A program made the translations under genes and the position numbers. From NCBI GenBank assembly GCA_021775995.1, contig JAJFGS010000013.1, positions 930,001 to 994,000 on the forward strand: 64,000 nt of DNA, written 5' to 3'. A model generated the notes under the pieces. The model made no database searches, was not told where the DNA came from, and worked only from the letters and a program-made list of their open reading frames with translations. This DNA is from Alphaproteobacteria bacterium. Its GTDB lineage: Bacteria; Pseudomonadota; Alphaproteobacteria; Micavibrionales; Micavibrionaceae. Within the stretch, counting starts at the first letter, position 1, and each line of letters opens with the position of its first letter. Shown one piece after another: positions 17,814 through 29,292 of this stretch.

Positions 17814-18509
17814 ATGTCAGCAACGATAACAAAAAAAGACAAACCCCATTACACAGGTCATCGTGATCGCTTGAGAGAACGCTTTCTTGATGCCCCTGAC
17901 TCTCTACCAGATTACGAGCTGCTGGAAATTCTTCTTTTCATGGCGATACCCCGCAAAGATGTCAAACCCATTGCCAAACAACTGATTGATCGTTTTAAAA
18001 ATATCAATGGCGTGCTGAACGCCTCCTTGAATGATCTAGAAGGCGTTGACGGCATCAGCCACAATAGCGCCATCGCCATTCGCGCCATTCGCGCCGCAGG
18101 ACTTCGCCTGCTCAAACAAAATATCATGGGTCGCCCCATCCTCAACAGTTGGCAACGGCTGATTGAATATGTAGAGGCGGCAATGGCGAATGAAAATAAT
18201 GAACATTTCCGCATTATCTTTTTGAACAAAAAGAACGAGGTCATGGCTGATGAAGTGCAACAAACCGGCACTGTCGATCACACCCCCGCCTACCCGCGTG
18301 AAATTATGAAGCGTAGTTTAGAACTTGGCGCCACCGCGCTCATATTGGTGCATAACCACCCCAGCGGTGATGCCACACCATCGGATGCCGATGTCACACT
18401 GACCAAACAAATCATTGCCGCCGCCAAACCCTTTGATATCATGATCCATGACCACCTCATCATCAGCCGTAACGGCACGCAAAGCTTCAAGAATTTAGGA
18501 TTGATTTGA
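17814..18509 (+). CDS. radC: RadC-family JAB-domain protein
   Basis: RadC proteins are JAMM-type metalloproteins of unsettled role, formerly linked to DNA repair. From the ATG at 17814 the protein is 231 aa, the usual length; the frame is also open from 17703, which would add 37 residues encoded by repeat DNA (SQTPAVAGVTDN...). Visible parts: HRDRLRERFLDAPDSLPDYELLEILL, the helix-hairpin-helix NLEGVDGI-like segment (LNDLEGVDGISHNSAIAIRAI), and the RadC/JAMM site LVHNHPSGDATPSDAD with its upstream Glu in NKKNEVMADEVQQTG. It is followed by an AT-rich orphan gene starting 3 bp downstream. Confidence 0.93.
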   Translation: MSATITKKDKPHYTGHRDRLRERFLDAPDSLPDYELLEILLFMAIPRKDVKPIAKQLIDRFKNINGVLNASLNDLEGVDGISHNSAIAIRAIRAAGLRLLKQNIMGRPILNSWQRLIEYVEAAMANENNEHFRIIFLNKKNEVMADEVQQTGTVDHTPAYPREIMKRSLELGATALILVHNHPSGDATPSDADVTLTKQIIAAAKPFDIMIHDHLIISRNGTQSFKNLGLI

Positions 18510-18511
18510 AA

Positions 18512-19105
18512 ATGTTTAAATACCTATTGAATAATCCCTATGATTTATATTTAGTAGAAATTGAAACTAATTGTTTAATAATAAAAAAAGCTTATAAAAC
18601 CTTAATAAACCAACACCTATATTACACTGACCCAAGATGCAAAACTACCGACTATACCTGCTCTCCTATAGAACTACTAGCTAGTATAAATTTATTTATT
18701 AACTCCACCAGCATAATCAAAAAAATATTTTTTCCTGTCCCTGATAAAAACACAGAAAACAAAGATTTTACAGTTTATAGGGGGAAAAAATTACTAAATT
18801 TTTTTTCAAATCCACAATTAACTCACCTAAGAAAGGTCAAAGTTAGAAATTCCTATGAACACATAGATGATCGTTTTGATAATATTTTTCAAAATCACAA
18901 TAATAAAAAGTTAGTACTTTATGATTGCACAAAAAATTCAAATACAGAAGATGAATTAGTTATAAAAAAGTTCCACCCAGTAGAGTTCACAATATCTTTA
19001 GAACATCGTCATGAAGAAATAAATGTTAAAAAACTATATGAAGAAATTTCTTTAATTGAACAAAATATTGAAATAGCAAGAAAGGCTATTAATCAAAATA
19101 AATGA
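18512..19105 (+). CDS. AT-rich orphan protein, unknown
   Basis: 197 aa from the ATG at 18512. Helix-rich with a central segment LRKVKVRNSYEHIDDRFDNIF, where R-N-x-x-E-H-x-D-x-R resembles a motif seen in HEPN-like helical proteins, though I would not name a family on this alone. The rest (ETNCLIIKKAYKTLINQHLYYTDPRCK, ELVIKKFHPVEFTISLEHRHEEINV) is not recognised. Codon usage is far more AT-rich than radC just upstream, and a large palindromic element begins 4 bp downstream, both suggesting an acquired gene. Confidence 0.6.
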   Translation: MFKYLLNNPYDLYLVEIETNCLIIKKAYKTLINQHLYYTDPRCKTTDYTCSPIELLASINLFINSTSIIKKIFFPVPDKNTENKDFTVYRGKKLLNFFSNPQLTHLRKVKVRNSYEHIDDRFDNIFQNHNNKKLVLYDCTKNSNTEDELVIKKFHPVEFTISLEHRHEEINVKKLYEEISLIEQNIEIARKAINQNK

Positions 19106-26643: not shown

Positions 26644-27288
26644 ATGGAGAACGCTCAATTTAAAACCGATAGCGCTACTGATTTCATCACAAAAGCACTA
26701 GATGATTTTCTACGTGACAAAAAATTACAGCTCACCACCCAACAGCATGAGAAATTAAAAAAACTACTCATGGTACGGCTGTTGGAAGAAGAGATGAGCT
26801 ACGCCAACGCCTATAACCACCTCAATGACATCATGGAATATCGTAAAGATTACGAAATCAATGCCAATGCCCTTGAGGAAGCTGAAGAAGAAATGATCCG
26901 CATTATTGGGGCGGCAGATATACAAGAAAAAGAGGTTATTGTTGAAACGGCGCGTTACAAAAAACGCTTTATCGCTACCATTGCTTTATTGGCACTGTTC
27001 TGTGTTGGCATTGTTGGGTTGCAGGCCGTGACCTATTTTAAAAACAAGAACACTGAAATGACTGCGGTTATTACAACAGCGGAAGAACAAGAACTCAAGG
27101 CCTTGGTTCAAAAACTTGTTGAGCTCGAAAAATCTCGTGGGCAAGAGATCACACATAATGCGATCTATAATCAAATTAAGAAATTAGAGAGCGTTCAATC
27201 CCTCGGCACCGCCACCAGCTACAAAAAATTCAACCGCGCACAATATGATGCAGCAATGGTGTTTTTGAATAAGCAAATTATAGATTAA
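26644..27288 (+). CDS. Single-pass membrane protein, coiled, unknown
   Basis: 214 aa from the ATG at 26644 (MENAQFKTDSATDF); the frame is open from 26605 but that start has no ribosome binding site. A long acidic helical region (about 1-110, KLKKLLMVRLLEEEMSYANAYNHLNDIMEYRKDYE, EEAEEEMIRI) is followed by one TM helix (FIATIALLALFCVGIVGLQAVTYF) and a second coiled segment (AEEQELKALVQKLVELEKSRG). Domain organisation suggests a scaffolding or sensing protein, but none is recognised. Its stop overlaps the convergent gene at 27285 by 4 bp. Confidence 0.6.
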   Translation: MENAQFKTDSATDFITKALDDFLRDKKLQLTTQQHEKLKKLLMVRLLEEEMSYANAYNHLNDIMEYRKDYEINANALEEAEEEMIRIIGAADIQEKEVIVETARYKKRFIATIALLALFCVGIVGLQAVTYFKNKNTEMTAVITTAEEQELKALVQKLVELEKSRGQEITHNAIYNQIKKLESVQSLGTATSYKKFNRAQYDAAMVFLNKQIID

Positions 27289-29087
27289 GCAGCTTTTTTA
27301 GTAGTCTTATTAACTGTTGGGTTTTCTATTTGAGTGATTTGTAACTTCTTATCTAGGATTCTCATATCTCTAGCAAGATTATTAAGTGAGAATTTAGCTA
27401 TGGTTGAGTTAAAATCTTTTATATTTTTAAAACTGCGTTTTTTTGAACTTGTATCTGATACAGCAAGAACAAAAACAATACTTCTTTTTTTATTATCAAA
27501 TAAATTTAAAAAATCATTTTCAGATATATTTAATGCTTGATTTCCAATATCTCCCTTTCTATTCTTCATCTTATTATAAATCTTTTTTAAATAAGACTTA
27601 GGAGCTTTACCATTAATATCCTGATTTAATCTTTTAGCGGCAACAACAATTTGATTAGACAATTCTCTCATCTTATTCGTAAAACCAGACTTAACATGAA
27701 TAAGATAAATATTATTGTCATCCCAACGTAAAATATCGCACAATTCTACACCATCAGGTGTTAAGGTATCTAATACTAGAGTATTCTTAAGCCCTATATA
27801 TTCTAAATTATAAGCACCTTCTGTAGTTTTATTACTATCCCAGGGTTTTAAATTATCTTGGTATATGTTCTCAGAAATAATGCTTTGGCATGATTTTTCC
27901 AAATCTAAAATAAAGTCATTTTCAATTAAATACCACTGCCTATCAATACAAAAATACTTTTGTGGTTTATTTTTGATAGAAACGTCTCCTATCAAATGCT
28001 TACTTAAACTACCCTCCGACAAAAGCACCCCCTCCGAATCATAAGAAGAAATTTTTATTTTATCCATTAAAGATATAAATTTATTTTTATCAACTATATT
28101 TAAGTCTGACTTAATTTTTTTAAATAAAATATCTATATCGTTTAATATTTCAAATTTATAATCACCCTTAAAAATATTTTTATCCGTCCGCTCACCTTTT
28201 ACTGCGCCCTTTTTAGTAACTATATAATAATCTGCCACAAGATATTCTTCAAACTTATCACAATGACACAAATCAAAATCTATAAAATAGTTAAAATTGT
28301 TATACCTATCCCAAAGATCATCAATTAATGAATTTTTTAAATCAGATATAAGAGTTTTATGCTTAGAATTATTCAATTTTTCTACATTATTAATCTTGAT
28401 ATTAGCGTCGGATTTTAAAAGTTTTTCACAGCCCATAAGCACTTTTATTAGTTCATTTATATCTAAGGACTTTGTTATTTTAAAAGAAGATTTTGCAACA
28501 CAAGAAGTTCCAGATTTTATTTTTTTCTTATCAATATCAAAGGAATTTGATAATAAATCTCTATCAACTGTGGCTTTTAATTCTTGAATAATAGACCCAA
28601 ATTCCTGATTTTCATATAAAGTACTGTCTTGCCTAAAAAACTTACTTACACCCAATATTCCTCCAGCTAAACTAATCTCTCTCGTTGACTTTAGATTACG
28701 ATCATCCATTTTTTCTAATCTTGAAATAATCTCCATACCAAAATCATTTTTTATATGATCTTTTATAACATTATATCCATTGCCACCTGAAATTGCATAG
28801 ATTGCATTAGTAGACTTCATAAAGAGAAGAAGAACAAAATTTTCTGAGGTACTTTTATCAATTTTAAGAATATCTTCTTTAGAATCAGTTATAGGCTTGA
28901 TAAAATTTTTCCATGGAGGGGTTCTATCAAAATCCTTATAAAATAATGACAAGCTAAACCCATCAATCGTTGGCTTGGTCAATTTTTGTTTTTTATAGCT
29001 ATGACTTAAAATATCTTTTTCAATATCAGAAAGTTTTTTATTTTTTTCTATTTTATAAATAGAAATTTGTTGTTTCTGCCCCGTCAT
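27285..29087 (-). CDS. TIGR04141/DUF6119-type sporadically distributed protein
   Basis: 600 aa, very AT-rich and Lys/Ile/Asn-rich, unlike its neighbours. The opening QQISIYKIEKNKKLSDIEKDIL, the segment NAIYAISGGNGYNVIKDHI and the repeated start RDLLSNSFDIDKKKIKSG match my knowledge of the TIGR04141 (DUF6119) family. Near residues 430-460, TPDGVELCDILRWDDNNIYLIHVKSG has the E-x-x-D ... H-V-K spacing of a PD-(D/E)xK nuclease core. A strong ribosome binding site (AGAAGGAGA) precedes the ATG at 29087. No partner gene is nearby. The family's patchy distribution and this composition point to horizontal transfer; a defence role is only inferred. Confidence 0.65.
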   Translation of the reverse strand: MTGQKQQISIYKIEKNKKLSDIEKDILSHSYKKQKLTKPTIDGFSLSLFYKDFDRTPPWKNFIKPITDSKEDILKIDKSTSENFVLLLFMKSTNAIYAISGGNGYNVIKDHIKNDFGMEIISRLEKMDDRNLKSTREISLAGGILGVSKFFRQDSTLYENQEFGSIIQELKATVDRDLLSNSFDIDKKKIKSGTSCVAKSSFKITKSLDINELIKVLMGCEKLLKSDANIKINNVEKLNNSKHKTLISDLKNSLIDDLWDRYNNFNYFIDFDLCHCDKFEEYLVADYYIVTKKGAVKGERTDKNIFKGDYKFEILNDIDILFKKIKSDLNIVDKNKFISLMDKIKISSYDSEGVLLSEGSLSKHLIGDVSIKNKPQKYFCIDRQWYLIENDFILDLEKSCQSIISENIYQDNLKPWDSNKTTEGAYNLEYIGLKNTLVLDTLTPDGVELCDILRWDDNNIYLIHVKSGFTNKMRELSNQIVVAAKRLNQDINGKAPKSYLKKIYNKMKNRKGDIGNQALNISENDFLNLFDNKKRSIVFVLAVSDTSSKKRSFKNIKDFNSTIAKFSLNNLARDMRILDKKLQITQIENPTVNKTTKKAA

Positions 29088-29292
29088 CTTATCTTCTCCT
29101 TCTATAAGCGAGTTAAATTTATGCTCCCCTAAAATTAGGCAGAGCTAAAACTGAACGTAACAATTTACGATTGCCTTAATGCTCTCATAAAATTGATTTA
29201 AAAAAAAGAGAAAAGAACAAAAGAGAACAAATCTGTGGATAAAAAACTGTATAAGTTAGTGTATAAACTTGTGAACTGTTACGTAAATAATG

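Follow-up and report, generated by a model that had tools for sequence, protein, structure and literature searches.

A DUF6119/TIGR04141 gene inserted beside uvrB in a member of the Micavibrionaceae: a candidate for one-gene phage defence

A gene of the DUF6119/TIGR04141 family was analysed within a stretch of 64,000 nucleotides, referred to here as the window, from an alphaproteobacterium of the family Micavibrionaceae (GenBank assembly GCA_021775995.1, contig JAJFGS010000013.1, positions 930,001 to 994,000 of the forward strand). The gene stands alone as an insertion next to uvrB, and its product, which is predicted to carry a C-terminal PD-(D/E)xK-like nuclease domain, is on balance probably a horizontally acquired, self-contained, infection-triggered nuclease effector against phage. 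This reading draws on the family membership of the gene, its insertion, the predicted fold, the conserved core, and the association of its relatives with type I restriction-modification (RM) operons and with mobile elements, each of which is established below. Coordinates of the features referred to are collected in Table 1.

Results and discussion

Family membership and insertion at the uvrB locus

The frame begins with ATG and runs intact for 600 codons without an internal stop. Profile searches with hidden Markov models (HMMs) returned 107.6 bits (E 5.6e-31; curated cut-off 35) against TIGR04141 of NCBIfam and 119.8 bits (E 1.7e-34; curated cut-off 27) against PF19614 (DUF6119) of Pfam, with residues 9-580 of the protein aligned to positions 2-516 of the 524 in the latter profile. 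The window protein is a member of the TIGR04141/DUF6119 family, both cut-offs being exceeded over most of its length. A first-pass annotation, made from the sequence alone, had described the protein as TIGR04141/DUF6119-like and its gene as AT-rich and foreign-looking, and both descriptions hold: GC content is 26.8% (20% at third codon positions), the second lowest value among the 52 window open reading frames (ORFs) of at least 150 aa, for which the mean is 39.7% (standard deviation 4.8). The most AT-rich of these ORFs, at 18506-19102 on the plus strand (199 aa, 25.5% GC), is a further candidate for a foreign gene, unless the frame has arisen by chance. Chance-level hits aside, the defence models of PADLOC 2.0 matched neither the window protein nor any of 78 relatives, and a sequence search of the PDB with the window protein gave no match.

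The stop codons of the 26605 gene and of uvrB are separated in the window by 2004 bp, an interval that holds the DUF6119 gene alone together with ∼205 bp upstream of it. In the sister genome G005 the 26605 gene (76% identical) and uvrB (88% identical) lie ∼50 bp apart, which constitutes an empty site. Because the flanking genes are this close in G005, the locus is a single-gene insertion of ∼1.95 kb, in keeping with the initial description of the gene as inserted near uvrB. None of the seven sister genomes inspected at the site carries the gene. All 10 genomes of the genus contain uvrB, which encodes an excision-repair helicase subunit; outside the genus the gene order around the site is lost (47 loci examined). 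Inspection of the insert borders revealed no convincing pair of direct or inverted repeats and no integrase, and promoter-like sites at the locus were not in excess (13, versus 12.4 in shuffled sequences).

Other genes occupy the same site elsewhere in the genus. Two or three are present in genomes G009 and G001, and in G006 a different orphan, a 403-aa protein (L117:2724-3932), starts 4 bp past uvrB. This protein begins with a SIR2-like FILGAGAS segment and has a weak match to a PADLOC SIR2 model (7.9e-5, 19.7 bits), with no match in Pfam or NCBIfam.

Table 1. Location of the DUF6119/TIGR04141 gene, the insert, predicted domains and candidate active-site residues in the window
Feature	Position	Strand	Remarks
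DUF6119/TIGR04141 gene	27285..29087	-	600 aa, stop codon included; TIGR04141 and DUF6119 HMM matches
Inserted stretch, stop of 26605 gene to stop of uvrB	27289..29292	.	∼50 bp in sister genome G005
N-terminal domain, residues 1-225	28413..29087	-	Mixed alpha/beta; residues 129-198 low confidence; weak resemblance to triphosphate tunnel metalloenzymes
Middle region, residues 226-384	27936..28412	-	Partly low confidence
C-terminal PD-(D/E)xK-like nuclease domain (predicted), residues 385-592	27312..27935	-	AlphaFold model and VIA
E423, start of first core helix	27819..27821	-	79/79 rows
D440, after first core strand	27768..27770	-	79/79 rows
E448-L-C-D451; D451 at place of D of PD	27735..27746	-	E448 and D451 79/79 rows; C450 77/79
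H464-V-K466, at place of (D/E)xK	27690..27698	-	H 79/79 rows; K 78/79
Q479, following helix	27651..27653	-	79/79 rows

Predicted fold and conserved core

AlphaFold2 models were obtained for the window protein (mean predicted local distance difference test score (pLDDT) 69.3, predicted template modelling score (pTM) 0.67) and for a typical relative from Brevundimonas (mean pLDDT 88.7, pTM 0.84). Structural comparison by VIA aligned nuclease-fold proteins to the C-terminal domain of the window model in 8 of the 12 rows with Z scores of 5 or more, the proteins concerned being FokI, NucS, EndoMS, OkrAI, BspD6I2, HamA, AF1548 and XisH, with FokI as the best match (Z 6.7, 3.2 Å over 125 residues). 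For the Brevundimonas relative all 11 rows at this threshold were nuclease-fold proteins placed on the same domain, with Z scores of up to 6.6 and with EndoMS/NucS, HamA, CdiA-CT, SfsA, Can2 and SduA among the matches; each of the matched nucleases is taken to have the PD-(D/E)xK fold. The alpha-beta-beta-beta-alpha-beta order of elements that makes up the core of this superfamily can be traced in both models, at moderate scores (Z below 8). The C-terminal domain thus probably adopts a PD-(D/E)xK-like fold in these models, so that the nuclease-like core proposed at first pass finds support, at moderate scores. Neither outcome named in advance as grounds for rejecting that annotation, a missing HMM match or a structure devoid of the nuclease fold, was obtained.

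The N-terminal domain gave a different picture. The remaining four of the 12 VIA rows for the window protein align this part with triphosphate tunnel metalloenzymes (Z 6.1-6.3, 2.3-2.4 Å over 91-94 residues), whereas the N-terminal part of the Brevundimonas relative was matched to RdgC (Z 4.2). A Foldseek search against viral structures gave a phage exonuclease as the best hit (E 4.9e-3), with RdgC proteins next. Since the two models disagree, neither fold has been assigned to this domain.

The window protein was aligned with 78 relatives (alignment A5, 79 rows). The conserved core of E, D, ExCD, HxK and Q is complete in the window protein, and the E-x-x-D...H-V-K segment picked out by the first-pass annotation corresponds to E448-L-C-D451...H464-V-K466, of which E448, D451 and H464 are identical in all 79 rows and K466 in 78. 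In the Brevundimonas model the second core strand begins with D410, the third carries H420-x-K422 and Q436 falls in the following helix. The aspartate is separated from the H-x-K motif, on the neighbouring strand, by 13 residues in the window protein and by 10 in this relative, as in PD...(D/E)xK. Set against the canonical motif, D and K are in place, but the position normally taken by D or E is occupied by an H that is invariant in all 79 rows, and this substitution is the odd point of the putative active site. The sole row without the motif lysine is that of Mycobacterium interjectum (L056), in which H-I-Q replaces H-x-K.

The window protein is highly divergent, being ∼18% identical to the 78 aligned relatives. 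At positions that are near-invariant in those relatives it keeps seven of the eight polar residues located in the core, as opposed to one of 12 polar positions elsewhere and, for all others taken together, 12 of 35 (Fisher p 0.0008 and 0.014, respectively, values that are illustrative since the region was picked after the alignment had been viewed). From the segment S-H-L-F/W-x-Q-G and from P-F-F-S near the C terminus, both near-invariant in the relatives, only L476 and Q479 are kept; these segments are not a curated criterion of the family, and their loss marks a divergent branch.

Genomic context and mobility of the relatives

Gene neighbourhoods were read at 79 loci drawn from a scan of genome contigs, in which 334 relatives were found and the best 80 retained. 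Two or more type I hsd genes were present within 8 kb of the DUF6119 gene at 36 of the 79 loci, the usual order being hsdM, sometimes a gene for a DUF4357 protein, hsdS, DUF6119, hsdR and a gene for a YgjP-like metallopeptidase. Within these 36 loci a co-directional gene lies no more than 30 bp upstream in 29 cases and downstream in 26, mostly with 4-bp overlaps. The DUF6119 relatives are therefore recurrently embedded in type I operons, a conclusion that rests on gene order and overlaps rather than on background frequency.

Several further features of these loci were noted. The YgjP-like metallopeptidase follows hsdR in 24 loci (L028-L102) and closes almost every type I operon with a DUF6119 gene. 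Preceding hsdM, a 199-aa gene (L046:3675-4271 and its cluster, 22 loci) matches PADLOC type I specificity models over about half the length of the models, as a second, half-sized specificity subunit. Directly upstream of DUF6119 at seven loci (L036, L037, L039, L041, L043, L044 and L045), and with a 4-bp overlap with its start, is a family of ∼447 aa, present there even where a type I operon is not seen in the vicinity. It is a possible partner; no match to it was found in Pfam, NCBIfam, PADLOC or PHROGs.

The window gene is not part of an hsdM-hsdS-hsdR operon and stands alone. No match to Methylase_S (hsdS) was detected in the window genome by a search that was positive in 9 of 14 known genomes used as a control, and a single N6_Mtase match was found, in a 1086-aa frame; the lack of an hsdS match in the genome makes its DUF6119 copy a genuine orphan. 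These observations, together with the tight co-transcription between hsdS and hsdR and the 4-bp overlaps seen in the relatives, could be accommodated if DUF6119 proteins were accessory subunits of type I RM complexes, serving perhaps as an additional nuclease, to regulate HsdR or in restriction alleviation, with the window copy as a stranded relic or otherwise employed. However, at 43 of the 79 loci fewer than two hsd genes were seen within 8 kb, and the RM or solo label changes 14 times on the tree by parsimony, with at least 10 of these changes forced by well-supported branches (four rows are unlabelled), which indicates that the protein occurs time and again apart from such a complex. Moreover, the frame in the window is intact over its 600 codons, and an accessory role is considered unlikely, albeit the strongest of the alternatives.

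At the loci outside type I operons, 91 neighbouring proteins were scanned, with matches to restriction endonuclease, DNA methylase, RmrA, BrxL, AbiJ and STAND proteins and with no single fixed partner gene. A C-5 cytosine methylase adjoins two of the scanned stand-alone loci (L070 and L075), and this, the solitary gene and the resemblance in fold of the nuclease-like domain to FokI and type II enzymes are what might be expected of a solo restriction nuclease, either modification-dependent (type IV-like) or sequence-specific, that cuts phage DNA directly by virtue of a base modification or motif and without an infection signal. Yet a methylase at a fixed place is missing from most of the solo loci, and Pfam matched no known modified-base-binding domain in the window protein; this explanation seems less probable still than that of an accessory subunit.

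The first-pass annotation had called the family sporadic and uncharacterised, and the data agree on both counts. Matches to the DUF6119 model were found in 2 of 58 genomes of relatives, 3 of 142 of the order, 10 of 385 of the class and 11 of 398 of the phylum, in overlapping sets that each include the window genome, and the open-licence PMC papers searched hold nothing on the family or its function. The other match within the genus, in G006, belongs to a typical member of the family located elsewhere in that genome and is not an orthologue of the window copy; inspection by eye showed a fragment of an HsdM-like gene and a putative integrase close to it. With the window protein as query no relative was found in viral contigs, plasmids or phages, and a scan of viral contigs with four typical relatives was likewise negative. 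A typical relative used as query did, however, retrieve 25 plasmid records, 13 of them predicted to be conjugative, and a single phage, Pseudomonas phage vB_PaeS-D14B, in which the gene is cargo between two integrase genes. Very short branches join proteins from different families of Actinomycetota (Cutibacterium, Brachybacterium and Brevibacterium), a pattern that is compatible with recent transfer. The family is widespread and mobile. An unusual group is formed by four loci of G305 and G339 (L009, L010, L012 and L014), whose TIGR04141 proteins measure 767-885 aa, begin like signal peptides and contain an insert; several copies are present in the 1.6 Mb genome of G339, where the family may serve another use.

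Comparison with known systems

A precedent for a nuclease tied to a type I system is PrrC, an anticodon nuclease that acts on tRNA and is switched on when the T4 protein Stp inhibits EcoprrI (PMC12707154). The same guard logic is proposed here for the DUF6119 relatives embedded in type I operons; no sequence or structural link between PrrC and DUF6119 was found, however, and the window copy is without an RM partner.

HamA (PF08878), the effector of Hachiman, is another nuclease of a defence system and ranks with the best matches in fold (Z 6.6 for the relative, 5.6 for the window protein); its description in PMC12278908 illustrates how a nuclease of this type may be restrained and then set free. 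The same paper gives the HamA motif as D-E(X)K, as opposed to H-x-K in DUF6119. PF08878 has no match in the window genome and no HamB helicase adjoins the window gene, its neighbours being uvrB and the gene common to the empty site. SduA (PF14082) of Shedu, a stand-alone defence nuclease, was matched in fold at Z 5.0 for the relative and 4.2 for the window protein, and the SduA_C model (PF14082) has no match in the window genome. By HMM and profile comparison the protein does not belong to the HamA or SduA family; hhalign comparison of DUF6119 with HamA (seven proteins) and SduA was no better than controls, in a weak test that gave nothing for HamA against SduA either. Among phage families, phrog_18579 matches typical DUF6119 relatives but not the window protein, and the DUF6119 family is not mentioned in the outline or abstract of PMC12799240.

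Proposed function

We infer that the protein is catalytic, that DNA is its substrate, that it is activated on infection and that its role is in defence. The N-terminal domain and middle region would form a putative sensor or substrate-binding part, fused to a nuclease domain of PD-(D/E)xK-like type in which, unusually, H-x-K replaces (D/E)xK. The protein would be kept inactive, or away from its substrate, until an infection-specific signal is received, whereupon DNA would be cut and the infection stopped, probably at the expense of the cell. Where a nuclease stands alone and has no methylase, the DNA of the host must be spared, which calls for a trigger, a dependence on modification or a partner under regulation. 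Embedded relatives would likely act as a second line tied to the type I restriction complex, in the manner of PrrC and EcoprrI; the window copy, having no such complex, would work independently of one and hence must respond to a different trigger. A role as a single-gene defence or toxin is compatible with the insertion and with the defence-rich neighbourhoods of the relatives.

Several observations weigh against this reading. The window model has a mean pLDDT of only 69.3, from an input alignment composed mostly of sequences at ∼18% identity; every VIA Z score is below 8, a range in which VIA cautions about chance arrangements; and Foldseek against the PDB returned no significant E-value for either the window or the relative model. 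The neighbours of the window gene are genus-conserved genes as opposed to defence genes. In addition, the window protein lacks residues that are invariant in the other 78 (at the positions of S474, H475 and G480 and of P561-F562), and may have drifted in function or died. A further reading, that the window copy is a decaying, non-functional selfish insertion from a once active family, would suit an end branch of 4.18 substitutions per site, the AT-rich composition, the loss of family signature residues and the want of a close relative among 142 genomes of the order, but the 600-codon frame is open and E, D, E, D, H, K and Q are retained, with W385, F116 and G117, such that decay is regarded as very improbable.

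The window gene, read as an infection-triggered nuclease effector, is a good candidate for one-gene phage defence. A more general proposition, put forward tentatively and with less assurance, is that DUF6119/TIGR04141 proteins constitute an unnamed class of defence effector, in which an H-x-K nuclease is joined to a sensor domain that either guards type I complexes, firing when phage inhibit them, or acts alone, the window protein then being a minimal, one-gene, infection-sensing nuclease with the trigger in its own N-terminal part. If a variant nuclease is indeed tied to type I RM in this way, it would represent a new effector, and the idea derived from PrrC, of a second line placed over the first, would extend to a different enzyme. 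The question that results is what activates the solo copies, given that a restriction complex for them to monitor is lacking. The divergence of the window copy is informative, since the residues that it has retained point to those that do the work.
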